Positions 2,796 through 54,537 of a DNA stretch of 64,000 nucleotides are shown in pieces. Source of the DNA: Symmetrospora coprosmae (lineage: Eukaryota; Basidiomycota; Cystobasidiomycetes; Symmetrosporaceae); NCBI GenBank assembly GCA_008802785.1, contig VUYT01000009.1, positions 558,001-622,000 of the forward strand, in the 5' to 3' direction. Each line of letters starts with the position of its first letter. Position 1 is the first letter of the stretch. The position numbers and the translations under genes are program-made. Under the pieces are notes generated by a model, which saw nothing but the letters and a program-made list of their open reading frames with translations, did no database searches and was not told the DNA's origin.

Positions 2796-3998
2796 TCATC
2801 CAAGCACCTTTGGACGTTTCGCCTTCTTTGAGCCTCCCTTTGAGAAGCTTCGCCAATCGGTGACTCGGGTTTCACGGGAGTCTGCGTAGAGGAAGGAGCA
2901 GCTGTTTAGCACCATGCTACGACGAGCGTCTGCCGAAGCGCATAGCTGGACGCACCTTCCCACTTCGCCTTGTCCTCCATCTTGCGCTTGCGCTCATTGG
3001 CTTCCTTCTCGACTCTCTGCGCCTCTGCACCCTCTGCAATCATCGTCATTTTCACTGTCCGACGCTTCCGCAATTCTTCATCAATGAGAATCTCCTTCGT
3101 CTTTTGCTTGACTCGCTCTCGCAAAGGGGGAAGGAGGAAGCGAAGCTTGTCGTGGGAGTCGGGTGCCTCGGGTGGCACGCCCAAGCCGCGCAGGACGAGC
3201 ATGCGTGCATCGGCTCTACGGGATGGCAGGCAGTATGAGCATGCATCAGTCAAAGCATGCGCTCGGTGTAGCCTTGGGGGTGTCGCTCACATAGTCTTAT
3301 CTAGCACTCTGCAGGTGGGATGAACGGCGGTAACAATCAGCAGCCAATCCACATACTTCTATCCATGGCGGAACCACTCACTTGCGCTTGTCCTTGTCGA
3401 GTAACTCTGTCTGTGCCTTCTTGAGCAAGTCGAACGCTTCCGGCCCCCGAACAGCCTTGAATCTGTCCGGGTGAATCATCAGAGACTTCTTCCTGTACGC
3501 CTTCTCTGTGGTTGGGAAACAAGCAGCGGGCTGTCAGTTCAGCAAGATGCAGTGTGACGGCACAGCGCGGCCCTTGCTCACGGATGTCATCCTCGGTGGC
3601 CCCGACGTCGACGCCCAGAACGTCGTACGCATTCAGCTTGAAGGCTCCGAGCACGCGGGCACACTAGGAGGAAAGTCAAGTTGATCATCAGCAACCAGTC
3701 CTTACTAGACTGCGGCTATTGCCCTCCCTACAGCCATACAGCGCCGGCTGACGCGGTCACTGGACGTAGGCCGCACGGCACGGCACACGGCACAGCACAG
3801 CACAGCACGCACCTCCTCCTCCCGCTGGAGACCAGTCGCTTCAGCTGCAAGAATCCTATCAATCTCCTTGTCGTCAAAGCTGGCCTCGAGCTCTGCCACC
3901 GACTCTTTCTTTGTGGTCGAGGTGGACGGACCGGGTGCCGGTCCCTTGGACGTCGAGGCCTCAGCTGACGCCGAGCTGGCAGCAGCGGGACTGGCCAT
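2796..3998 (-). CDS. DNAJC8-like spliceosomal J-domain protein
   Basis: Model on the minus strand: exons 3998-3813, 3663-3582, 3505-3382, 3308-3291 (18 nt), 3215-2956 and 2881-2796, giving 251 aa, almost exactly the length of human DNAJC8 (SPF31). The J-domain begins at KLNAYDVLGVDVGATEDD and carries HPD in SLMIHPDRF. It is followed by TELLDKDKRK, VLDKTIADAR and a long charged helix (LIDEELRKRRTVKMTM). The C terminus has the family signature WEDSRETRVTDWRSF, which only appears when the last intron (2955-2882) is removed; this strongly supports the model. The start at 3998 has a good context (ATCATGGCC). Family members act with Hsp70 in the nucleus and associate with the spliceosome. The gene is tandem with the HIT gene upstream. 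Confidence 0.87.
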
Positions 3999-4237
3999 GA
4001 TGAGAGGGTTCTGCACGAGCAGGAGCGATGAGAGCGGGCGGTTGCGCTATGCTGTGCTCCTCTTCGTATTGTACGTTTGATTGGTGGTCACAATGTCAAG
4101 GAGAGCGAGCGCGAGAAGGTGCCCGTGACAGAGCTGAACAGCAGTGGCGGAAATAATGACAGGCGCAAGGCTGATATACGCTATGATCACAACGACAGGA
4201 CACAGAGTACTGATGTATCTGGGAATCTTGCGCAGAA

Positions 4238-5168
4238 CTAGCACGGCAATACGCCCACCTTGCCGCCCTTGTTGAGGATGGCCATCGCTTGGTCGAGCTC
4301 CACAAAGTGCGAGAAGCCCTTTGACCGCTTCCCCGAGGATGGCGTCTGGCTGGGACGGTATTTGAAGCGATCGTAGGCGGTCACACATGGCAGACCAAGG
4401 CAGTGTAGATGCAGGTGGTTGACCTGTTACGAAAGGAAGATTCAGGACGTGTCCGCGGGCAGGTGTATGAGCGAATGCGCTCACCGAGAAGAAGCTGTAG
4501 GTTCGATGAATATCCAGTCAGAAGCGAGGCCAGCAGATGCAGTTACGGAACATGAGTGAAGCTCACGGAGGTATGTGAAAGCCCAGGCTACCCACAGCAG
4601 GATGTCAGGTGGATAGAGGGGCAAGAGCCGGGGAGACGGCCAGAAGCTCGACTCACCGCTGATGTGTGCTGGCGAAGCCGGCCTCCTCGAGTAGATGCGT
4701 ACCGATTTCCTTCATTGCGTGGACTGTGGGGTGTGCAACAGTGAGCGACACAGCAACCTTATCCGCCGTGCTCTATCATAGCGAAATCGCACGCATAGGG
4801 ATGTCGTCGGCGCTCAACGTCTTGACGTTATCTGCAAGCATCTGCAATGTGAGCTTCTCTACTGCGGGCAAGGTACAGCTGCTATGCTTACCAAGATGTC
4901 GCTTTGGGACACAGAGCAGATGCATCCTGGCTCCAGGACTGCGGTCGTGGAAAACGGAAAAAGCATCATTCTGAAAGGCAGGCAGTTAGATCAGAGCTGG
5001 AGACGAGAGGGACAGTCGCAGAATCACTTCAAAGACAACGTTGAACCCGCGCTCCTTCGTGATGCCGCAGAAGATGCAGTCTGCGAGCGCAACCTGGCTC
5101 TCGGATTTGGCGTTCAATATGCCGTTTGAAGGCGCCCGACCGAGACAACCTCGCAGAGCTTCGAGCAT
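4238..5168 (-). CDS. HIT-domain protein, HINT3-like
   Basis: Model: exons 5168-5028, 4970-4892, 4831-4793, 4723-4657, 4587-4567, 4494-4485 (10 nt) and 4423-4238; 180 aa, matching HINT3 length. The HIT domain starts at ADCIFCGITKERGFNVVFE and NDAFSVFHDRSPGARMHLL. The nucleotide-binding His-x-His-x-His triad is in SVNHLHLHCLGL, and the C terminus (FVELDQAMAILNKGGKVGVL) is typical of the fungal aprataxin/HINT3 branch. Family members hydrolyse nucleoside phosphoramidates or acyl-adenylates. The triad is read in frame only if the 10-nt exon is spliced in (LGFHIPP-FFS-VNHLHLH). All intron phases close. Start 5168 is the first ATG in the frame; an upstream non-coding exon cannot be excluded. Confidence 0.85.
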
Positions 5169-5987: not shown

Positions 5988-7855
5988 ATGTCGAAATCCG
6001 CCCGGATATTCTCGATCGCAGCCCTCGTCGGCCTCGCTGCTATCGGTACCACGCCTGTACTTGCCCAGGGCGAAGGCGAGATCGAGTCGGACGCCGTCTG
6101 GCACAACAGATATCATGCGTTGCTTGCATTGTCCCTCTACGGCGACCCGGCCGAAACGTGCCCTGGTACCTTCACGGAGGCGACCCTCCGTCAGAACGTG
6201 CGTTTTCAGGGCCTGTCTATCGCGCTCGGTCAAGACCTGACGTCTGACGTCTGCTCTCTGTCTCCAGTTCCCGGACACCACTCTCGAGCCCTTCCAGATT
6301 CTACAGCGCTTCGGTCCTACCGAGCATGGCGCCGAGGGAGTAGTCTTCCAGGTAGGTCCATAACATTGCTGAGAGCGGCACCACCAACTTAACATGCCGA
6401 GGGCGAGCGAAGACCATGTACGACTGACATCGAGCTATCAACCACCCAGATCCCGGAAATGGATAAGGTCGTCATTGCTTTCAAGGGTGGGTCGGTCTAA
6501 GCGCTCTGATTAGCTGAGTCGCGCTCAGTAAACGCGATCGCTCTTCAGGCAACTACGGCCTCGAGGTCACCATCCCTCACGCAGTCGCCCCCCTCGACTC
6601 CGCCCTCGGTCTCGGTGGCGTCTGTGCCAACTGCACGGCTAACGAGTTCGCTCTTCAGGGATACCTCGAGTGCGTCATATGACTTCAATCGCTTGACAAG
6701 CTGTCGCTGATCTGGAGTGCTTACAGGGCTCGCCGAGAGACCGACAACTGGGCCCTCGCCCGACAGCGCGTCGAGGAGACGGGTCTCGAGCTCAGCATGG
6801 CCGGTGTAAGCACGCGGCACACGGGGCATACAGATGCATTGACACTGATAATAGTATCGCTTATAGCACGGACTTGGAGGCATGCACAGCATCATCGCAT
6901 CGATCGACCTGGGATGGGCCGGCGTCTGCCGCTGGGTGGGTCTGCTCCTCGCCCGCAAAGACAATGGGCAGGCTTCGGCTAATCATCTCGCTCTGCTCAT
7001 TCTTTTTCGCTCAGTCGCACAACCATGGGTGAGATAGCTTCTCTCCCAAAGGCCGGTTCACGGATCCGAGCTGACAATCCGATCATCCTCACCGCAGCGC
7101 ACCACGAACGCTGAACGCTGCAGGGGCAGCCATGTACACAAGGTTATTCGCCGGAGAGTCAGGAGAGAGAGGTGTCGCCAATAACGACGGCTTTGTCGAG
7201 CTCATTCCTGCCGGTCCGGACTATGCCTTCACGGGCACCCCGTTCTACTACAGGTTCGTCCGGGCTCTTTGCCCAGAGCCAAGGCAGCTCAGGACTGACA
7301 TTCGATTCATATCAACAGCGGCTACTCGAACGTCACGCACATGCAGATGCATGTCTGCCGTGACGCTCCTGAGGACCCGGCTTGCGCTCCGCGAACCCCT
7401 TACAACGTCAACGACCAGTGAGTGCAATACTCAAGCGCGAGCGCGGACACGCAGAGACGCTGCAATCCAGCAACTGACATTCTGTTTCGCTTCACTCTCA
7501 AAGCTACTTCCTGTTTGACCACGCTGGACGATGCGGTGCCGGCCGATGGATCCGAAACGAGACCTACCTTGACAACTTTGTCGCCAGCATTACATCGGAG
7601 TTCCAGGCTACCGCTACCGTCTCTTCGTCGATGCCCAACGCTACGGCTGTTGCGACCGCGGTCAACTCCACCACCGTCGCTGAGCCCACGACCACGGCCG
7701 CTCCGTCGTCTGCCGTCACATCAGCGACGGCAGGCATTGCAGGCGCAGCTGCCAACGCGCCAACCGTTGTCGCCGACTCTGGCGCCTCGACTCTTCGCAC
7801 CGCTTCGGCATTGGCCGTTTCGGTCTTTGCTGGTCTCGCATACATCTTCTCTTAG
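5988..7855 (+). CDS. secreted GPI-anchored class 3 lipase-like protein, nucleophile Ser replaced
   Basis: Model of ten exons: 5988-6197, 6268-6351, 6450-6486, 6549-6669, 6727-6805, 6867-6935, 7015-7028 (14 nt), 7098-7253, 7319-7417 and 7504-7855; 406 aa. A signal peptide covers about residues 1-26 (hydrophobic core FSIAALVGLAAIG). The class 3 lipase fold is recognised from KVVIAFKG, the nucleophile elbow, HGAPRTLNAAGAAMYTRLF and a C-terminal FDHAGRCG. The elbow reads AGHGLGGMHS, so the expected Ser of GHSLGG is Gly (codon GGA at 6870-6872). Candidate acid (NNDGFVELIP) and His residues remain. The C terminus is a Thr/Ser/Ala-rich stalk ending in a hydrophobic GPI-type signal. It is probably a cell-surface pseudo-lipase or binding protein rather than a lipase; that is inference. 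Confidence 0.75.
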
Positions 7856-24339: not shown

Positions 24340-24566
24340 CATTTCCGGACAATTCCGCGCCGCAGTTCCTCCTCTCTTGTACAATGCAAGAAAAATACGG
24401 GGAGGTCAGTCAGACTGGTATGCGCAATGGTCGCAGAGGCCAAGTATGCTCACCGATACTCGAACATGAGATGGACCGCGGCAAAGACGGCAACGCACGC
24501 TTGCGCAAGGAAGGTGATACCTAATAGGCGTGTGAAATGCAGTCAGCGCTTGTCGAGCGGGACACT

Positions 24567-26914
24567 TTATGAGATGGCAAGCAACACACCCGACCAGGTC
24601 CCGCAGACCTCCCTCAGAAAGGCTACGGTATTGTCGATACCAAGAACAAAGCCGATGGTGTTGGCGGTGATCATCATGAGGATGTTGCCGAGGGCTCCAA
24701 CCGCACAGACGTGCCTGTACCATGGCTGGTTGCCGTACTGTGAAGCAAGAGCAGTACAAAGCTCAGCACGACCATCCGCTCAAGCTTGCCAAAGCTAAGA
24801 TCAGATGAGCAGACTTTGGTCTCCGGGACGGCCTTGACTGCAATCATCTCAGGAATCACAAAGAGCGTGATGAGCCATCCCCACGCAAGGAGGTGGAGCG
24901 AGAGGTCGTGCCAGAGCGCGACGAACGTAAAGACGAGCAGGGTAGCGACGACCGTGTTTGTCGCGGTCGCGATAGGCACGTAGAGGTACCGGATGAGCCA
25001 GAGGTTGTACGAGCGGTGCCAGGAGCGCCAGAATCCGCGCGTAGAGTAGTTGTTGAGCACGCAGCGGATCATGTTCTCTGGCGGGTCGATGCCGTCCATG
25101 AGGGCCCAGAGGCGGAAGAAGCGCCAGGGAAGCAGGAGCTGCCGCGCAGACAGACCACAGAGGACCGCACGATGTGACGATACGTGAGCATGCAACTAAC
25201 CTTTGTAGTACGGGGTGTGTGTGTGGGAAGGGCTCGCTCACTTTTAGCCAGACAATGATCAGATTCCAGAAGCTGATCATGGCGAGCTCGAAGGGCGTGT
25301 CGCCCGTCCACGCTGGCACGCGAGCCATTTTACCGGCGCTATCTGTGCGTGTCGCCCATGAGCCTTTGATGGCGACGACGTACATGTAATGCAGGATGAC
25401 CTCCATCGTCAGGAAGCACACGACGAACCGCACCAAGTAGCTGAGGATAGCGCGGCGAGGAATGGGCGCCTGCTTTTTGGCCTGCTCGATGAAAGAGGTG
25501 AAGGTGACGATTGGGCCGGCGATGAACAGGGGCGGGTACAGGATGTACGAGAGGTAGTTGCTCCACGAATAGTCGCGCAGCTCGGTACTCGAGCGTGCTG
25601 GGATCTGGATAGGAGAGGCAGGCAATACACTCAGAGAGAGCCGCGCGCACCCGGGATGGAGCGCTACTCACCTCGGCTGACTGCGGTAGATTGGCCCAGT
25701 ACCTGTCGAGGCCGAACGACACCAAGCGCAGCATGCAGATGTTGAAGTTGACGTGCCAGTCGGGCTTGAGGCCCGCTATCCGGTGGTCGTCCTGCACAGT
25801 CGTCCAGGTTGTCAGCAAGACCCGCGGGTACTCGGTTTGTCCGAATACACGACATGTCTCTCACCAGGAACGCCAGAAATTGAACAATGCTTCCAAACTT
25901 GTACCCGCGGTAGATTTCGTTCAGGAAGAGGATGGCAATGTTGACTGTCCAGATCAGGTACGGAGTGGCCCTCGACGCGTGGCCCACAATGTCGGGCAGG
26001 CGGAAGTTGATGTAGAGAATGAGGAGGACCTTGAGCGACGAGATGCCGTGCAGGAGAACGAGGACGGAGAGAGACGAGACGAGCATGACTGGTATCCGCT
26101 GGTAAGGCGCCTGCGGGTTTGGTGTGGCGGGCGTGGGGTTTGACTGCCCTGTCTTACGGCGGAGGTGCGCGGAGTACAGCTTGGATCCAACGATGTGGAC
26201 GAGGGCGAGCGCGACGAGAGAAGGGAGGCCATTGCGGAAGCCTCTGTATTGTGCATCGGTGTTGTCCTACAGGGACGGGCAGGGGGACAGTCAGGCACGT
26301 CTGGCCACATCACGCTATAGAAGGCCGGTCTCTGCCAGACAGACGCACCACTCTCCGCCCGGGTATCCAGCCCGGTGACAGACGCCTTTCGTATATCCAG
26401 TAGTTCGGGTGGGTCTCTACGGGTGGTGTTCGAGGAGTCAGAGACCCTTGACTGTCGGTGTGGTGTGCCTTTACCCCGAGCGTGTCTGGCTGACCCTGAC
26501 CCTCCCTCACTTACCCTGGCTGAGGCGGATGGGCGCCTGCACCATCTTCCACAGGTAGAAGGCAATGACGAGGTAGTAGATGCAGAACTCTGTGCTCGTC
26601 CAGCGTGAGCGCGCAGCAGCAGCAGCAGCGGGGTGCGACGACTGCGACGCGCATGGGAGTGCAGCGGACGTCGACGTCGAGAGGCGCGCCTTTGTCCGCC
26701 TTGACGCCGTCTCTGGGGTCTGGATGGTCAGGGAGGCGATTCCAGCAGGCCAGAAGTAGGATGGCGACGACGACGAGGACGAGGGCGGATACACCAAGCT
26801 GTCATTGCTGCTGCCATCGCTGCTGCTGCTGCTGCTGCCGAGGAGATTGGCCGTTTCGCTGTCCATGGCGTCGGGCGCAGGATGAAGCCGGTGGGCGGCA
26901 GCGGGGCTCGTCAT
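24567..26914 (-). CDS. GUP1: MBOAT O-acyltransferase GUP1
   Basis: Seven exons: 26914-26515, 26416-26349, 26266-25865, 25791-25672, 25604-25242, 25138-24815 and 24737-24567; 615 aa. The N-terminal tail is Ser/Ala-rich with CAG/CTG-type codon runs. Family marks are [108 protein letters not shown], the probable active-site His in [11 protein letters not shown], and [17 protein letters not shown]. Gup1 works in the ER, remodelling GPI-anchor lipids by acyl transfer. The last intron has a weak GTCTGC donor but closes the frame and restores the family sequence. It is transcribed towards GPI16. Confidence 0.9.
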
Positions 26915-37046: not shown

Positions 37047-40000
37047 CTATCTCCCGAACCCGGCCTGCTGCATCCGCGAGGGATGCATGAATGCACCTCC
37101 GCTCGGTTGCGCGGGAGGTCCAGGCGGAGGCGGTTGATAATGCTGCTGCTGCTGCGCCATGTACTGCGGCGTCTGCGGTCGCATCTGATGTGCTTGCGGG
37201 GGAGGCGCGCCGCGATGCACGTATGGGCTTCGGGAGCCGTATGGAGTTGTGCCGGTCTGCGCGGGCGTGCGAGCTCCTGCTGCTGGATTTGGCGTCCGTC
37301 CGCCCAGATGAGGTGTGCGGCCACCGAGCGCCGCACCACCACCTCCACCGCCAGAGCCGGCGAGCATTGCTTGTCTTGTCATGTACATCGACTGTAGCAC
37401 GGGCAGATTGACAGATATGAGTCGTCCATTCGGCGGCAACCTGGAGAACAGTCAACTCACCTTGAAGGCATTGCACAGCATCGTAACATTAGGTGCTGGA
37501 TCGCTATTCCCCTGCAGAAGGAATTGTTCTGGCTCGACAGAGATGCTCTGGGGGATGCGACCGTGTCAGCAACGAGCGCAAGAGCCCGCACGTGAGGTAG
37601 CCGGGCTCACCCAGCTCTGAATCTCATATCCCTTCGTCAAGAAAGCGAGGATGAAGTTGCCTGGCTTGCGAGGGTCCAGAGCGAAGCCGTAGAAGCTCCT
37701 TGCTGGTTCTGCCATGATGGATGTGTTGAGCCATTTGCCTATGGACAAGCATGCAATAAGATCGTCAGCTGTACTCAAGAGTTCTCAGTACCACAAGCAC
37801 TCACGGAGGTCGGCCTCGGTACCCTTGTACTTGTCCGAGTGCATCATCTCGTCAACCTTCCTCGCCATCGAGCGGACGTATGATACGATCAACTCGTCCA
37901 GATCCGAGTACGTGTATTTGCCTTGCACACGCAAGCTCTTGCCGAGCGAAAACTCGTTCTGCTTGTCGAGCTCGAGAACGTCTACATGGAGTCGTGAGTT
38001 GACAGGACGTCAGACAGCGATTTGAGCAATACTGCGGAAGCGTTGCCTGACTCACCGATGTGCTGGTATACACCGTCATCGACCTTCCACGTCACTGCGA
38101 GGTGATCCGTCCCACGAGACGAGGGGCGGACAACGCAGTCACCTCTCTGCAAGTTGGCCAGATGCTGCTCGGCCTGTCCAGCATTGAAGTTGTAGAAGTT
38201 CGGGTGGTTGACAACACGGCGGTGTCGGCCCTGGCTACGCTTGTTGCGTGCTTCGTCGGCCTGCTTGTCCATGCTGGCTTGGATATTGTCGTAGAACTGG
38301 TCGGGCTGAACTTTGCGGAGGGAAGTATGGTCTGCCGCAGCGACATGTTCCGGAAGAAGACTGACCCCAATCTTGAACTTGTTGATGTCGAGACTGGTGA
38401 CCAGGGCCTGTATCGTCTGTCCCACTCGGAATGGCATCGGTACTGGAACTTCGGGCGGGACAGCCTCGACTGTGACACCAGAGTCGAGTCGTCCTACTAC
38501 TCGCTCGTCCTTGATGATACGGGTGACGACCATTGGCACGACAAGGTGGACCTCAAGCGAGCGACGCGTTTCTCCGGTTAGCATTGTGAACGCCCCTTCC
38601 CCTGCCTTGATCCGGTAAACCTGTCGCGGATCCGAGTAAGGTCTTTGCAGCTCATCCCTGATCATGTAGAGTGTGAGCCGCTTTTGCAGCTGCTGCGTCT
38701 CGAAGAGGGCTGCCGCGAAGTCGTCCAGACTGAGCTCGTTCAGCTTCTGCGGGTCATCCGCCATGAGCTGAGCAACTATCGCGGATGGATGAGGCAGATC
38801 TTCGAGATCTTCCTCATCCATCTCTTCAGCATCGCCAGCCATCTTGCGAGCGATGTGGTAGTCCTCGCTGTGGATGCGAGTGCTGTCCAGAATGTCGTAG
38901 TCATCTTCGTCCTCCATGTTCTCCCGCGGTATCCGCAAGAATGCGACACAGTTCATGAAAATGCGGGATGTGCAGATCTCCTTCTTGACGAGATCGGCTC
39001 TGCAGATGAGTGTCCCTTCAGACTGTGAGATCGAACGAACATAGAAGTATCAGCTTGCGAGTTGCCTTTATCGCGCTTTGAGCAACACTTACTGCAGCCG
39101 TGATACGTCGCACCATGCCGCTGGCCTTTCTTGGACCGAGCCCAGAGACGTAGGGAAGCAGGACGCGGTAGTTGGGCTCTCTGATGGCTTTGTTGATGTC
39201 GACGCCTGTCATGTTGACGATGTTGACAATGGCCGACTCGAGTATGGGTAGTAGCTTCTCCCGCGAGATCTGCAGCGAGAACCCGTAGTTGTTCAGCGCG
39301 AATGCCGCTACAGCCCCTCTCACTGCACACGAACGCTTACCAATCGTTGGTCGGGGTCGAACGACAACGCAGTGATGTCGTTGCCAAGGGCGGCATACTC
39401 GCACAGCGGGTCTTGGACATGCCGAGCCAATCCTACGCAGTATCGCTCGACCGGGGACAGCTCGGCAAACTCCGCCTGGGCCCGCTCGCTGTTCTGGTAC
39501 AGTCGCGCTACCTCGTCGTTGACGAACACGACGGGGAGGTGGTGCACCCAATTCTCGGTCACCATCTGCTGATACTGCTCATCGGTCAATGCGTCCTTGA
39601 TGTCCGATTCCTCCAGTCCCTGCACATCGCGGTCGATGCTGCGCAAGTCGGCTAGCTTTTGGTCTAGGCGATCTTGAATCTCTTTGTCATGAAGCTGGAG
39701 CGTTGCCTGGACATCTAGCCTGAGTTCGTGCGTGTTCGCCGTGAAACCGCCGACCACGACCACATCCGGGCGGGTCCGCAGTATCTGCAGACGCATTGCG
39801 TGCTTTGAGTCGCGGTACCTGATCTCCTTGTACTTCTCTCTGCCAGCGAAGCGGCCCTTCGGAGCAAGGACCACCGTCTCAACCCAGTCGCGCTGCCGAT
39901 CGCCATTGCCAGACGAGATCGCCATGACTTTCGGAGGAATGTTCTTTTTGGGGTCGCTCGGCTGAGGATTTGGGTGAACGGGCACGTTCTCTGCTTCTCG

Positions 40001-42806
40001 TGCATGCCCTGGCGGCCATTTGGGCTGCGTGTCTCGATCATAAGGCGCCTGATTGACTCTGTCCTCGAGTGCGCGCGCACAGCGAGCAGCCAGCCAGTCC
40101 TCCTCCGTCTCCTTGAGCCAGTCCTTCGTCCATCGCGCGGCCATGGGCAGCAGATGGTACTGGAGCGCTTCGACGACGATGTCCTCGCGGACCTTGTTCC
40201 ACGCCCGCCCAATCTCGCTCGTTGATTCGGACAGGTAGGCGGTGTAAAAGTCCTGGGTGAGCTTGCGCAGCGGCTCCTTCATGATGTGAATGTCGACCGT
40301 GACGAGACCCTCGGACTCGGCATCCAGGATCTGCAGGAACTGCGTCGACTGCAAGAAATAGTCCACTGGCTTATCGAGCAGGTATTTGAAGGCCTGTGGA
40401 AGCGAAGGTCAGTCAGACGTTCACATGAGCTCACAATCAGCGACTCACATTGTACGGATGTGTGTCATCGACCTTCTGAGCGCCTTTTCCCGTCGGCTTG
40501 ACCGATACAGCTCCAAAGGTCCGGAAAGCTGTTCTGACACCTTTCTTGAGGATGGGCTCCTTCGATATTTCGTGGACAAGGATGACCTTCGCAGCGTTTA
40601 TGACTTGGTCATAGTCGGCAAAGAGCGACGTGACGTCCGTGAACTGCTCTGCAAAGTCCTCGGGTGCCGAGGGCGGATCTTCGATGTGGGCCTGCTTTGA
40701 TCCAGCCTCAAAGCCAGCGGCGAGCGCCTCAGCCGGGACAGCGATTTGCTGGAGCGAGAGCCAACGATGTCAGTCCATCCCATTCACCGAGGACCCCGTG
40801 CTTTGAACGTTATTCACCTCGGCAAAACGCGCGACCAAGCTGTCCTTTGCCTTTTCGTACCGCGAACCACTCGTCGCCCGCTTGTACTTCGACCCGTCCG
40901 AAGCGGTCCGCACGGCATCTGCGTCCTGGTCTTCTGCGATGATGTCTGCTCCAGCTGCCTGGGCGAGGTCCTTGAGCCTGCGCTGGTGCTTGACCATGAC
41001 ATACTCGACGAGGTCCGCGGCTTCCTCGAGTGACTCAATTTGCGCAAAGGTGTCGGTAAAGTGCTCGTCTTCCTCGATGCCGAGCTTGCCCCACAGCTTG
41101 AGCAGGTTTGCCTTGCGGTCGAGCATGGCGCGGTATTTAATGGCGAGGTGGTAAATCTTCCAGAGGTCGTCGCGGTCCAGCAGCGTCCTCTCCCGGTTGG
41201 CCGCGTTGGAGGCTGTAGGGTCGTGGTGGATGAAGTAGTCGCGCCGGTGCATCCAGATGAAGGGGACCTCGAAGCACTGCTCGCAGAGGAACTGCAGCAC
41301 CCGCTGGATGGCAGTGACGAATACACCGCGCAGCTCGGGAATGTGCCCGTCCGGCGTGAGAATGTACTCGCGTGTCAGGTCGTCAGAGATGCGCGTCGAG
41401 ATCCAGTTGGCGGCGTCGCCGAGCTCGGAGCGGAAGAGCAGGAGGTCGCTGCTTTCTGGCTCGGCTGGCGTTTCCTCCCCTTCGAGCACTGTCGGCGGAG
41501 GCGGGGTGCGGTGGGTTGAGATGCCCGTTTGCGCAATCTGCATCCGCTCGGGAATGTCCGTCGCGCGAATGATGTCGTCGGCGTCCGTCATCATGCGCTC
41601 AGCGATCTCCGAGGGCTCGAACACGTCCTGCATCCGCGGAGCAGGCTTGCCGTCCTCTTCGTCGGACTCGAGCGCGTCGTCGTAATCGTGCCCGTCGCCG
41701 AACACTTCCTGGATCTCTCCCCACGCTCTGCGGACGGAGATGGGTTGAGTCAGCTATCTGATCAACGTCTCTGTGGGTGCTCGTGGGAGTTCACGCACTC
41801 TGCACCCATGTCGAGCCCTCCAATGGAAAAGCCGCCCTTCTGCTTCTTTCGTCGCTCGCGTTCCTTCTGCTTGCGTGCGAGGCGGGCCTCCCTGTCGCGC
41901 ACCTCGCCGGTGCCGTCCTCGTCCGGACTGTCCTCCTCGATGAAGTCGGCCATATCGTCCTCCTCCATGAGGTCGGCACCCAGGCCGTCGGCGTCCCCGT
42001 CGCCGTCGTCGGCGGCATGGCGCTCCTGCGCGCGCCGCTTGCCCTTGTCCTTGCGGGCGCGCGAGCTGATGTCGTCAAAGAGGTTGGCAATGTCCGGCGC
42101 GCGCGCGTCGCCGGAGTCCTCCTCATCCTCGTCGTCCGAGGCTGCACCGGCCCGCTTGAGCTTCTTGAGCTTGCGCTGCACAGGTGTTGAGGTGTGGACG
42201 AAGGTCAGGGCGAACGCACACTGTGAAGCCCCACAGAGGCTGCGACAGGCAGACTCACGCCCTCTGGCCGCTCAATGCGCACGCCCGTGTTCTGCTCGAC
42301 GAGGTCGAGGTCGTCCTCCGAGAGTGCCTCGAATTCGCCTGTGCGTGTCGGGTGCGGTCCACAAAGACGGCTGGGCTTTCAGGAAGGGGCAGTCCACGAG
42401 CAGAGCATAGCAGGGACACGACGCACGCTCTCTGTTCTTCTTCTTCTTGTGCTTCCTGCGCTTCCTGCGCTCGCGGGCTCCGTCGTCCTCGTCCTCGTCC
42501 GCAATGAAGCCTGTGCGTGCATGTGCGCCCCCCGGCGGCGTGGCACAAGCATCAGCGTCCAACCCGCTGCATACAGGCAGGCAGAGCATCGCAGGGGAAG
42601 ATGGACGCACCCTCCCGGATGCGCGCCTCCTCCTCTGCATCGTCGTCGTCGTCCTCCTCGCTGCTGTCCCCGTCGCTGTTCATGAGGTCAATCCCTTCCT
42701 CGTCGCTCGACCCGGGCGCGCCTCCATCCTCATCGTCGTCCTCATCCCTGCGCCTCTGCTTCTTCTTGGAGGCGCCATTGCTGCCCGACGCCGGTTCAGA
42801 GGACAT
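37047..42806 (-). CDS. SPT6: transcription elongation factor SPT6
   Basis: Thirteen exons, 1626 aa: 42806-42611, 42510-42427, 42338-42259, 42175-41799, 41727-40818, 40748-40449, 40393-39341, 39269-39093, 39022-38056, 37981-37805, 37738-37611, 37547-37461 and 37391-37047. The N terminus is very acidic. Recognised parts: [39 protein letters not shown] (death-like/HtH core), [19 protein letters not shown], the YqgF-like block [17 protein letters not shown], the helix-hairpin-helix [20 protein letters not shown], an S1 domain, and the tandem SH2 ([40 protein letters not shown]). A Gly/Pro/Gln-rich tail follows. Spt6 is a histone chaperone riding with RNA polymerase II. All exon phases close. Confidence 0.95.
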
Positions 42807-52253: not shown

Positions 52254-54537
52254 ATGCCGTTCGGGCCGTCCCACCCCATCCTGCGCCGTCTGGCGAAATG
52301 GACCATGCACGGTGCGGGCGCACAACCGCACAACGAGCTGCTGCACTGAGCAGCAGCTTCATCCGACTGATCCCGCCTTCCCTCTGATCTCCCTCCGCTT
52401 TTTGCTCGTCGCTACCCATGCCTTCCTTCTCACAGGCTTCTTCTCGGATATCCAGGTCATTGATGCCGAGAACGTCCCGCAGGATGGCCCGCTCATCGTC
52501 TGCTGTACGCATTGGAACATGATTGTGCGTGGACTGGCAGTCGGCCCGTCATAGGAAGCTCCTTGCCAGGGTAATCTGACGACGTTCCTTTGGCCTTGGC
52601 ACCCCTTCACATTCGTCCATCCCTCCATCCGTCTATTCGTCTATCCGTCTGCCTGGCTGCGTTGACCACTATACAGGTGGACGTGAGTAGCTGCCGCGTC
52701 ATCAACAAAGACGTCAGCGACGGCTGATGGAACAAACCTGTTCCTGCGCAGCCGGCCGTCCTCTCTGGCTTCTTCCCACATGGTCGGATGCTCCACTAGT
52801 GCGTGCCCTGCGACACCACGCATGCATACGCAATGCGCGCCCTGCGGCTCACTTTGACAAATTAACTGACTCGCCTTCATCATCCAATCGCAGTTGGGCC
52901 AAATCCACTATCTTTATCAACAAGCCCGTGTCTGCCCTCCTCAAAGACGCAGGGAACATTCCCGTCGACCGCAAGAACAAGGACAACCAAGCCCTCTTCA
53001 GCGGGACTTTTGACGCGCTCAAGCTCGGAGAGGTCGTCGCCATCTTCCCAGAAGGGACGAGCTACACCGAGCCGCACCTGCAGGCCATCAAGGAGGGTGC
53101 GAGCTGGGTGTGTGCCAACCCCTCCACGCTTGTTCCCTCGGGTGCTGTACTGACCTCTGCGGGTACTGTCCGCCTCGACTCAACAGGCCGCCCTCGAGTA
53201 TGCCAAGAACATCCGCGCCGTCGACGACACGGCACAACGCGATCCTGCCGTCAAGGATCCGCAAGTCATTGTCGCGTCTATCGTCTACACCCAAAAGACC
53301 AACTACCGGAGTCGGGCAGTCATGCAGTGCGTCAACGCGACTCTCCGCTCACGGTCGCCTGATGCGATACCTGATGCGATGCGATGTTCTCTCTGACCGA
53401 TCCCGCAGATTCGGCAAGCCAATCCCGATGAAGGAGTACATCGACAGCTTCCTCAATACCCCAGACGGGCCAAAGGGCGCCGTCAAGGAGCTCACAAAGG
53501 AGATCAGGGACCAGATGATTGCAATGACGGTGGATGCGCCAGATTGGTGCGTGCGCACCTCTGCTTCCGTAAAGCGAGTCGAGATTGGCCCAGCTGACTT
53601 ACCAACCTGGCGCGTTAGGGACACGCTCCGTGCGGCAGAGACGGCAAGACAGCTGCTATGGGGCGATGATGACAGGATACCGCTCAAGGATTTCCGCGCC
53701 GTATCGCAGAGGTGCGTGCATGTCCGCCCTGTCCGGCTCGATACGCCCCAGCGCTAACGTCCGTACTGCTTCAGCCTCGTGGACCTCTTCTCGTCTGCAT
53801 CACCCCGATCCTCGCAGGCTGCATCAGCTCGCGCCGTCCTCATCGAGTACGAGAGCGTGCTCCGCAGCAACGGTTTCACCAACGCTTCCCTGAACGCGCT
53901 GCCTTTACCCCGCATCCTGGACCCGCGCACGCCGGCCGCCCCTCCCGCGCGCCTGCGCACGCTGTGGGCGCTCATCAAGACGACGCTGACGGCGGTGCTG
54001 CTGCTGCCGTTCTTCCTCCTGCCGCTGCTTGCGCACCTCCCCGTGTACGCGATCGGCAAGTCGACCCAGCTGTACCTGAACAGCGTCGAGGCCGAGGCGT
54101 TTGCGCAGAACAAGATTGTCTTCAGCCTCCTCGCCCTCATCTTTGCAGTGTACCCCGCCATCTTCTTCACCACATGGGCACTGTGGCTCTTTACCCCGCT
54201 TGGCCTCGTCGTCGCCCTCGCGTGGACGGCCATGTTTGCAGTCTACCACACACGCCTCGTCGACCGCAACTACGGACGCTGGAAACGACTGGTGGCAGCA
54301 TGGAGAGTGCTCGTGGGCATCTGGTGGCCGGAGGTCAGCACCAGCGATGCACAAGGCGAGACAAAGACCCGGAGGATGCTCAGGCTCAGATCGGAGGCCG
54401 CAAAGAGTATCGCGGACCTCGTGCTGACTCTGGAGAGCGAGAAGGAGGGCAAGGAAGAGGTGCAGTGGTACAGAAGCTTGGGCGCGAGGGTGGCATCGCC
54501 CGGTGGAGAGAGCGATCACAAGGGGAGGTTGCAGTGA
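52254..54537 (+). CDS. glycerol-3-phosphate/DHAP O-acyltransferase, SCT1/GPT2-like
   Basis: Nine exons, 515 aa: 52254-52311, 52436-52524, 52677-52682 (6 nt), 52752-52798, 52894-53107, 53187-53326, 53409-53546, 53619-53711 and 53775-54537. Acyltransferase motif I is CCTHWNMIVDPAVLSGFFPH, read only if the 6-nt exon GTGGAC (Val-Asp) is included. Then come YWAKSTIFINKPVSALLKDA, GNIPVDRKNKDN, the substrate motif VAIFPEGTSYTEPHL and IVYTQKTNYRSRAVM. Two C-terminal hydrophobic hairpins (TAVLLLPFFLLPLLAHLPVY, SLLALIFAVYPAIFFTTWAL) anchor it in the ER. The enzyme makes lysophosphatidic acid for phospholipid and triacylglycerol synthesis. It is shorter than yeast Sct1/Gpt2 (about 750 aa). Confidence 0.87.
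52677..52682 (+). other. 6-nt microexon of the acyltransferase gene
   Basis: The sequence ...ACTATACAG|GTGGAC|GTGAGTAG... has a full acceptor and a consensus donor. Inclusion is in phase 0 on both sides and adds Val-Asp, giving the conserved Asp of motif I. Skipping would keep the frame but lose that Asp. Confidence 0.75.

Follow-up and report, generated by a model that had tools for sequence, protein, structure and literature searches.

Fungal GPATs have been divided into two classes: fGPAT-A (Sct1/Gpt2), with the formulas HxNQF(phi)D for motif I and FPEGGSHD for motif III, and fGPAT-B, reported in Basidiomycota and basal opisthokonts, with HxNx(phi)(phi)D and FPEG[T/G/I]S[H/Y]x (Smart et al., 2014; PMC4207751). 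Among the fungal GPATs that these authors aligned, an HX5D motif I was reported in both classes (PMC4207751). The His and Asp of this motif are described as a charge relay, with five residues between them in the yeast GPATs (PMC7613133).

Exons of the kind considered here are already known, from published accounts of fungal microexons of 1-20 nt and of a mini-exon in plants that encodes an active-site Asp. Microexons down to 6 bp (2 aa) are described across many P450 genes of Phanerochaete chrysosporium (PMC1184071), and Fusarium CYP621A carries a read-confirmed exon of one nucleotide, which is common to 20 orthologues and whose loss breaks the frame (PMC12940212). In plant GH32 enzymes (invertase/fructan exohydrolase), a 9-bp mini-exon encodes DPN, and an allele that lacks it is probably inactive according to the authors (PMC4477480). 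Simultaneous assembly of the splicing machinery on the two sides of a microexon is reported to be impossible (PMC8831610), and intron definition has been suggested in a review for exons too small for exon definition (PMC8624252). In the passages seen of two Cryptococcus papers (PMC3990503, PMC8022950), only a read-mapping setting is mentioned, and none of the matches listed for the open-licence literature, as covered by titles and the starts of abstracts, dealt with a fungal GPAT microexon.

Here we describe six bases at 52677-52682 of a 64,000-nucleotide stretch of the Symmetrospora coprosmae genome (the window), which are highly likely to form a genuine coding exon of an fGPAT-B-like acyltransferase. 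This exon would be included constitutively and would supply Val-Asp, the Asp of which would pair with the motif I His (HX5D), both residues being required for catalysis in this superfamily.

Gene structure and splice signals

The window lies on contig C76, in a 20.05-Mb genome of 77 contigs with a G+C content of about 60%. Predicted genes have short GT-AG introns with branch sites that are mostly CTGAC or CTGAT. The nine exons of the acyltransferase gene, once joined, can be read without interruption for 515 codons up to a stop codon (Table 1).

Table 1. Features of the acyltransferase gene in window coordinates
Feature	Position	Strand	Basis
Exon 1, from proposed start codon	52254..52311	+	in-frame ATG, ab initio model, translation
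Exon 2, motif I His segment CTHWNMI at its end	52436..52524	+	translation, ab initio model
Intron 2, 152 nt, GTGCGT...TATACAG	52525..52676	+	translation, branch/AG analysis
8-bp tandem repeat CGTCTATC x 4.6, within AG-free stretch of intron 2	52614..52650	+	repeat analysis
Microexon GTGGAC, Val50-Asp51; Asp51 is the motif I Asp	52677..52682	+	translation, alignment, ab initio model, shuffles
Intron 3, 69 nt, GTGAGT...GCTGAT...GCGCAG	52683..52751	+	translation, branch analysis, ab initio model
Exon 4, PAVLSGFF at start; motif I region goes on	52752..52798	+	translation, ab initio model
Exon 5, motif II (IPVDR) and motif III (FPEGTSY)	52894..53107	+	translation, motif check, ab initio model
Exon 6	53187..53326	+	translation, ab initio model
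Exon 7	53409..53546	+	translation, ab initio model
Exon 8; preceding acceptor GCGCGTTAG has the gene's lowest score	53619..53711	+	translation, ab initio model
Exon 9, hydrophobic segments (judged by eye) and stop codon	53775..54537	+	translation, ab initio model

On direct reading of the window, the six bases lie between TATACAG and GTGAGT, and the GT-AG introns on either side are both in phase 0; an earlier note on this DNA had given the exon, its boundaries and its phase exactly, in coordinates and letters. The exon is internal, has AG and GT flanks, and falls within the length of at most about 30 nt by which microexons are defined. Its inclusion yields the product ...CTHWNMIVDPAVLSGFF..., and its omission yields ...CTHWNMIPAVLSGFF..., in which the frame is intact and the motif I Asp is gone. 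Translation thus bears out two further statements of the earlier note, that the exon supplies this Asp (HWNMIVD arises only when it is included) and that skipping removes the Asp without a frame shift. Retention of either intron introduces an in-frame stop (TGA in intron 3).

We scored the splice signals with a purpose-written ab initio gene finder, which combines a three-periodic coding model with donor, acceptor, branch and length models and sets no minimum exon length. It received no protein data and was trained iteratively on 264 kb, comprising the window and 200 kb of contig C2. Six other introns of the target gene served as the first seeds, after which this gene was excluded from re-training. 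The final model holds 358 predicted introns and 80 predicted genes, and its training relied on its own predictions rather than cDNA. An earlier version of the gene finder was used for the enumeration, branch-site analysis, path scores and paralogue gene models given below, and the final version for the shuffles and the AG-free stretch, except where indicated.

The final model returns all nine exons of the target gene, including the 6-nt exon, with a score of 98.0. The expectation that most gene finders would miss this exon fits published experience, as far as two papers describe it (PMC8831610, PMC11121469), but does not hold for a simple ab initio model with no lower limit on exon size. Typical features of this genome are seen in intron 3, both in its length (69 nt versus a median of 73 nt) and in its GTGAGT donor, which is the commonest of the trained set (74 of 358). 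Within this set, donors 52683 and 52525 stand at the 82nd and 45th percentiles, and acceptors 52752 and 52677 at the 82nd and 59th. Over the + strand of the whole window, donor 52683 ranks 14th of 3375 GTs and acceptor 52752 ranks 7th of 4515 AGs.

The high rank of acceptor 52752, together with an in-frame junction, would also suit an mRNA that joins 52524 directly to 52752, in which case the six bases would not be exonic and the gene would encode an Asp-less paralogue, degenerate or working differently. Such a junction requires a single intron of 227 nt, a length found in 3 of the 358 training introns, and in splice score skipping lies 4.63 nats below inclusion. We asked how often chance yields a comparable exon by shuffling the dinucleotides of the interior of 52525-52751 20,000 times under the final model. 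An in-frame exon of 3-15 nt that beat skipping on splice score appeared in 189 of the 20,000 shuffles, and the observed margin was attained in six; in 12, an exon that beat skipping also restored Hx4-5D. With the earlier version of the gene finder, none of 20,000 shuffles attained the absolute splice score.

The motif I aspartate and the acyltransferase family

To survey other products of this region, we enumerated GT-AG combinations above loose score cut-offs, allowing up to two introns of 45-300 nt each, and obtained 11 frame-keeping, stop-free products. The pattern H.{4,5}D occurs in the microexon product alone (1/11), which also has the best splice score of the 11 and the best family profile score (145.2 bits, versus 132.2 for skipping). 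That the Asp comes from a different splice choice or a different small exon in the region was considered because a simple exon model could mislead; nothing was found in its favour, and given the enumeration we regard it as extremely unlikely.

The profile was built from ten bacterial HX5D proteins and one paralogue from the same genome, with the target excluded. All 13 aligned HX5D rows (the 11 profile proteins, the window protein and, from a second paralogue, the exon with the motif) contain both His and Asp; the bacterial proteins had been picked with an HX5D query. The Asp is followed by Pro in 9 of the 13 rows and by Ala in 4. The ten bacterial proteins comprise L120, the best 2 of 32 places from one search and 8 places from another, one of which repeats L121; L119, which shows HPLMYMD, was left out since its translation contains stops. 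Among the 80 bacterial relatives retained out of at least 90 confirmed, 78 show Hx4D and 2 show neither pattern, with Hx4D tried first. Two of the 32 places yielded no locus; the 38 loci checked divide into 27 with Hx4D and 11 with Hx5D, 10 of which were used in the comparison, while in the eleventh, L141, the Hx5D seems to be a coincidental match away from the motif and was rejected. The Asp is thus widespread, but its spacing in the comparison set was chosen.

Against this background, the direct 52524-52752 junction would cost the gene a residue found in every aligned HX5D row and 13 bits of family score, and with its lower splice score and long intron we consider it very unlikely. Three partly independent lines, namely the splicing signals, the protein and the chance test, agree that the microexon is very probably real. 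PF01553 is matched by the 515-aa protein with the exon at 61.5 bits, above the gathering cut-off of 23, and by a 229-aa skipped form at 55.7 bits.

With the microexon, and only with it, motif I of the window protein reads HWNMIVD and fits the fGPAT-B formula, with five residues between His and Asp. Motif II, IPVDR, follows 37 residues later, in agreement with (phi)P(phi)xR at 36-40, and motif III, FPEGTSYT, comes 21 residues after motif II, within the range of 21-104. No Pro matching motif IV, (phi)(phi)P[V/C/T](pi), was found 29-35 residues past motif III of this protein, the nearest similar stretch being IVASI about 40 residues on (counted by eye). Judged by its motifs, the gene is an fGPAT-B-like glycerolipid acyltransferase that fits most formulas of the class; since motif IV is unmatched, we file it as fGPAT-B-like and not as a full member, and its activity is likewise something that we infer. 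Neither HWNMIVD nor FPEGTSYT matches the fGPAT-A formulas. In a tree that contains no published fGPAT-B sequences, the window protein groups with HX5D proteins (support 91/76, not starred), and its place among them is left unsettled.

Three HX5D proteins were seen in the genome. Besides the window protein, these are one on contig C47 (HANQFLD, FPEGGSHD) and one on contig C2 (HSNSLTD, FPEGISHY), in both of which the H...D motif is uninterrupted by an intron. The C47 protein fits fGPAT-A in motifs I and III, and the assignment to SCT1/GPT2 that had been made for the window gene in the earlier note belongs there instead. HX4D proteins lie on C10 (NHQSMID) and C35 (NHISVIDDP), which by our own reading are Slc1-like and tafazzin-like, respectively; PF01553 also matches contig C49, where no gene model was obtained. 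A PDB sequence search with the window protein gave two matches, of which the 1-acyl-sn-glycerol-3-phosphate acyltransferase 5kym (E 1.3e-5) is plausibly related, and the same search with the C47 paralogue gave two weak matches with unrelated names only. In NCBIfam, the window protein scored 67.4 bits against TIGR00530, under the cut-off of 102.95. Among viral contigs, 9 stretches matched a pattern and none was confirmed as a close relative.

Intron 2, splicing order and skipping

The best branch candidate in intron 2 is TCTGAC. Its A occupies intron position 55, against a trained median of 49, and 97 nt separate it from the intron end, against a trained median of 24. The AG that is used is the sole AG in this interval; 281 of the 358 predicted introns also have as acceptor the first AG that follows their best branch candidate. 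The acceptor AG is preceded by 105 nt without any AG, and stretches that long or longer occur in 2 of the 358 training introns. The 8-bp tandem repeat lies between the branch candidate and the acceptor, and a second, weaker candidate, GTTGAC, is found 11 nt from the intron end. Points against the microexon include the unusually long branch-to-acceptor distance of intron 2 and the rank of acceptor 52677, only 212th of the 4515 AGs on the + strand of the window when the branch search is limited to 55 nt. Intron 2 may simply be an ordinary intron of ~75 nt that a pyrimidine-rich repeat has lengthened in the interval from the branch site to the acceptor, with the first AG past the branch being used. 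RNA structure that pulls the splice sites together was considered and rejected, as 52515-52761 folds no more stably than its shuffles (z 0.15; 105 of 200 shuffles did equally well).

Six bases leave no room for U1 on the donor and the machinery of branch site and acceptor simultaneously, so the two introns are probably removed stepwise. Introns 2 and 3 would then be defined and removed in succession, with intron 3, short and endowed with strong signals, presumably leaving first and fusing the six bases to exon 4. After this step, donor 52525 would have only acceptor 52677 to pair with, the AG of which is the first one past the consensus TCTGAC.

Because the skipped product stays in frame, exon skipping at some level is possible. 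If it were regulated, inclusion would give an active acyltransferase and skipping a full-length but Asp-less, dead protein, in a ratio set by growth conditions. Such a switch could exploit the frame neutrality of the six bases, by which skipping escapes the stops of intron retention, as well as the unusual AG-free stretch and tandem repeat as a possible site of regulation, and a glucose-regulated 20-nt exon of Trichoderma Xlr2 offers a published fungal precedent (PMC11121469). The splice signals, however, favour inclusion, intron 3, being short and strong, should be spliced out before exon 2 has a chance to join exon 4, and the fold of the region is unremarkable, so that we consider a regulated switch unlikely. 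A more specific form, in which the skipped protein acts as a membrane-embedded, Asp-less partner, dead or dominant-negative, and the 97-nt AG-free repeat stretch governs the choice, appears distinctly unlikely. The on/off control of glycerolipid synthesis suggested in the earlier note finds no sign of alternative use here, and the genome also has an Sct1/Gpt2-type gene. Constitutive inclusion is thus the reading that we retain.

Small exons in the window and in other genes

Of the 285 internal exons in the final model, 7 are predicted to measure 15 nt or less, including that of the acyltransferase gene. One is a predicted 10-nt exon, CTTCTTCTCG, at 4485-4494 (-), preceded by a predicted 21-nt exon at 4567-4587 (-). 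It codes for FFS directly 5' of an HLHLH stretch, and skipping it would break the frame. The protein bearing HLHLH is of HIT type (DcpS_C, PF11969, 45.4 bits), and the position of this exon before the histidine motif suggests that the acyltransferase microexon may not be alone, so that small exons placed at catalytic motifs may be no rarity in this genome. The predicted model at 2796-4841 (-) fuses the HIT-type protein with a J-domain-like stretch, in which HPDRF is what we take to be a J-domain-like motif, and it may represent two merged genes. A predicted 14-nt exon at 7015-7028 (+) belongs to a secreted-looking gene and lies some 20 residues past a GHGLGG stretch, which we assume to resemble a lipase motif; the first 331 residues of this gene gave no Pfam match at E 0.01. 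The window also holds an SPT6-type gene at 37047-42806 (-), with Pfam matches to HTH_44, YqgF, HHH, S1 and SH2 and 13 predicted exons in the earlier model, and a gene for an MBOAT-type membrane O-acyltransferase at 24450-26866 (-), with its Pfam match at 24852-25667, about 25 kb from the fGPAT-B-like gene.

The acyltransferase microexon shows cleanly how a tiny exon can carry one member of a presumed catalytic pair of residues. As this residue sits in a frame-neutral exon, a gene model that lacks the exon looks healthy yet describes a dead enzyme, which makes it an annotation trap for fungal lipid genes. Were the exon regulated, splicing would provide an unusually direct means of shutting off an enzyme.

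The window protein resembles fGPAT-B, as described in the passages seen, in its HX5D motif I, in motifs II and III and in two motif spacings, and differs in that the motif IV Pro was not found (PMC4207751). Like the P450 microexons of Phanerochaete, its exon is a six-base exon in a basidiomycete fungus; the passages on those genes tie no microexon to a catalytic residue, whereas here the exon carries the Asp (PMC1184071). Trichoderma virens Xlr2 also has a fungal microexon, whose presence decides function, but that exon is 20 nt long, lies in a transcription factor gene and is glucose-regulated with RNA evidence in the account seen, whereas the acyltransferase exon is predicted from sequence (PMC11121469). 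The Fusarium CYP621A exon, as described, likewise completes a conserved motif (PKG), was likewise inferred from a family alignment and splice sites, and likewise sits within what appears to be a single over-long intron; it is 1 nt long, frame-breaking and read-confirmed, whereas the present exon is 6 nt long, frame-keeping and predicted (PMC12940212). The GH32 mini-exon is from plants, measures 9 nt and belongs to a different enzyme family, but like the exon described here it is in frame and bears a conserved active-site Asp (PMC4477480).
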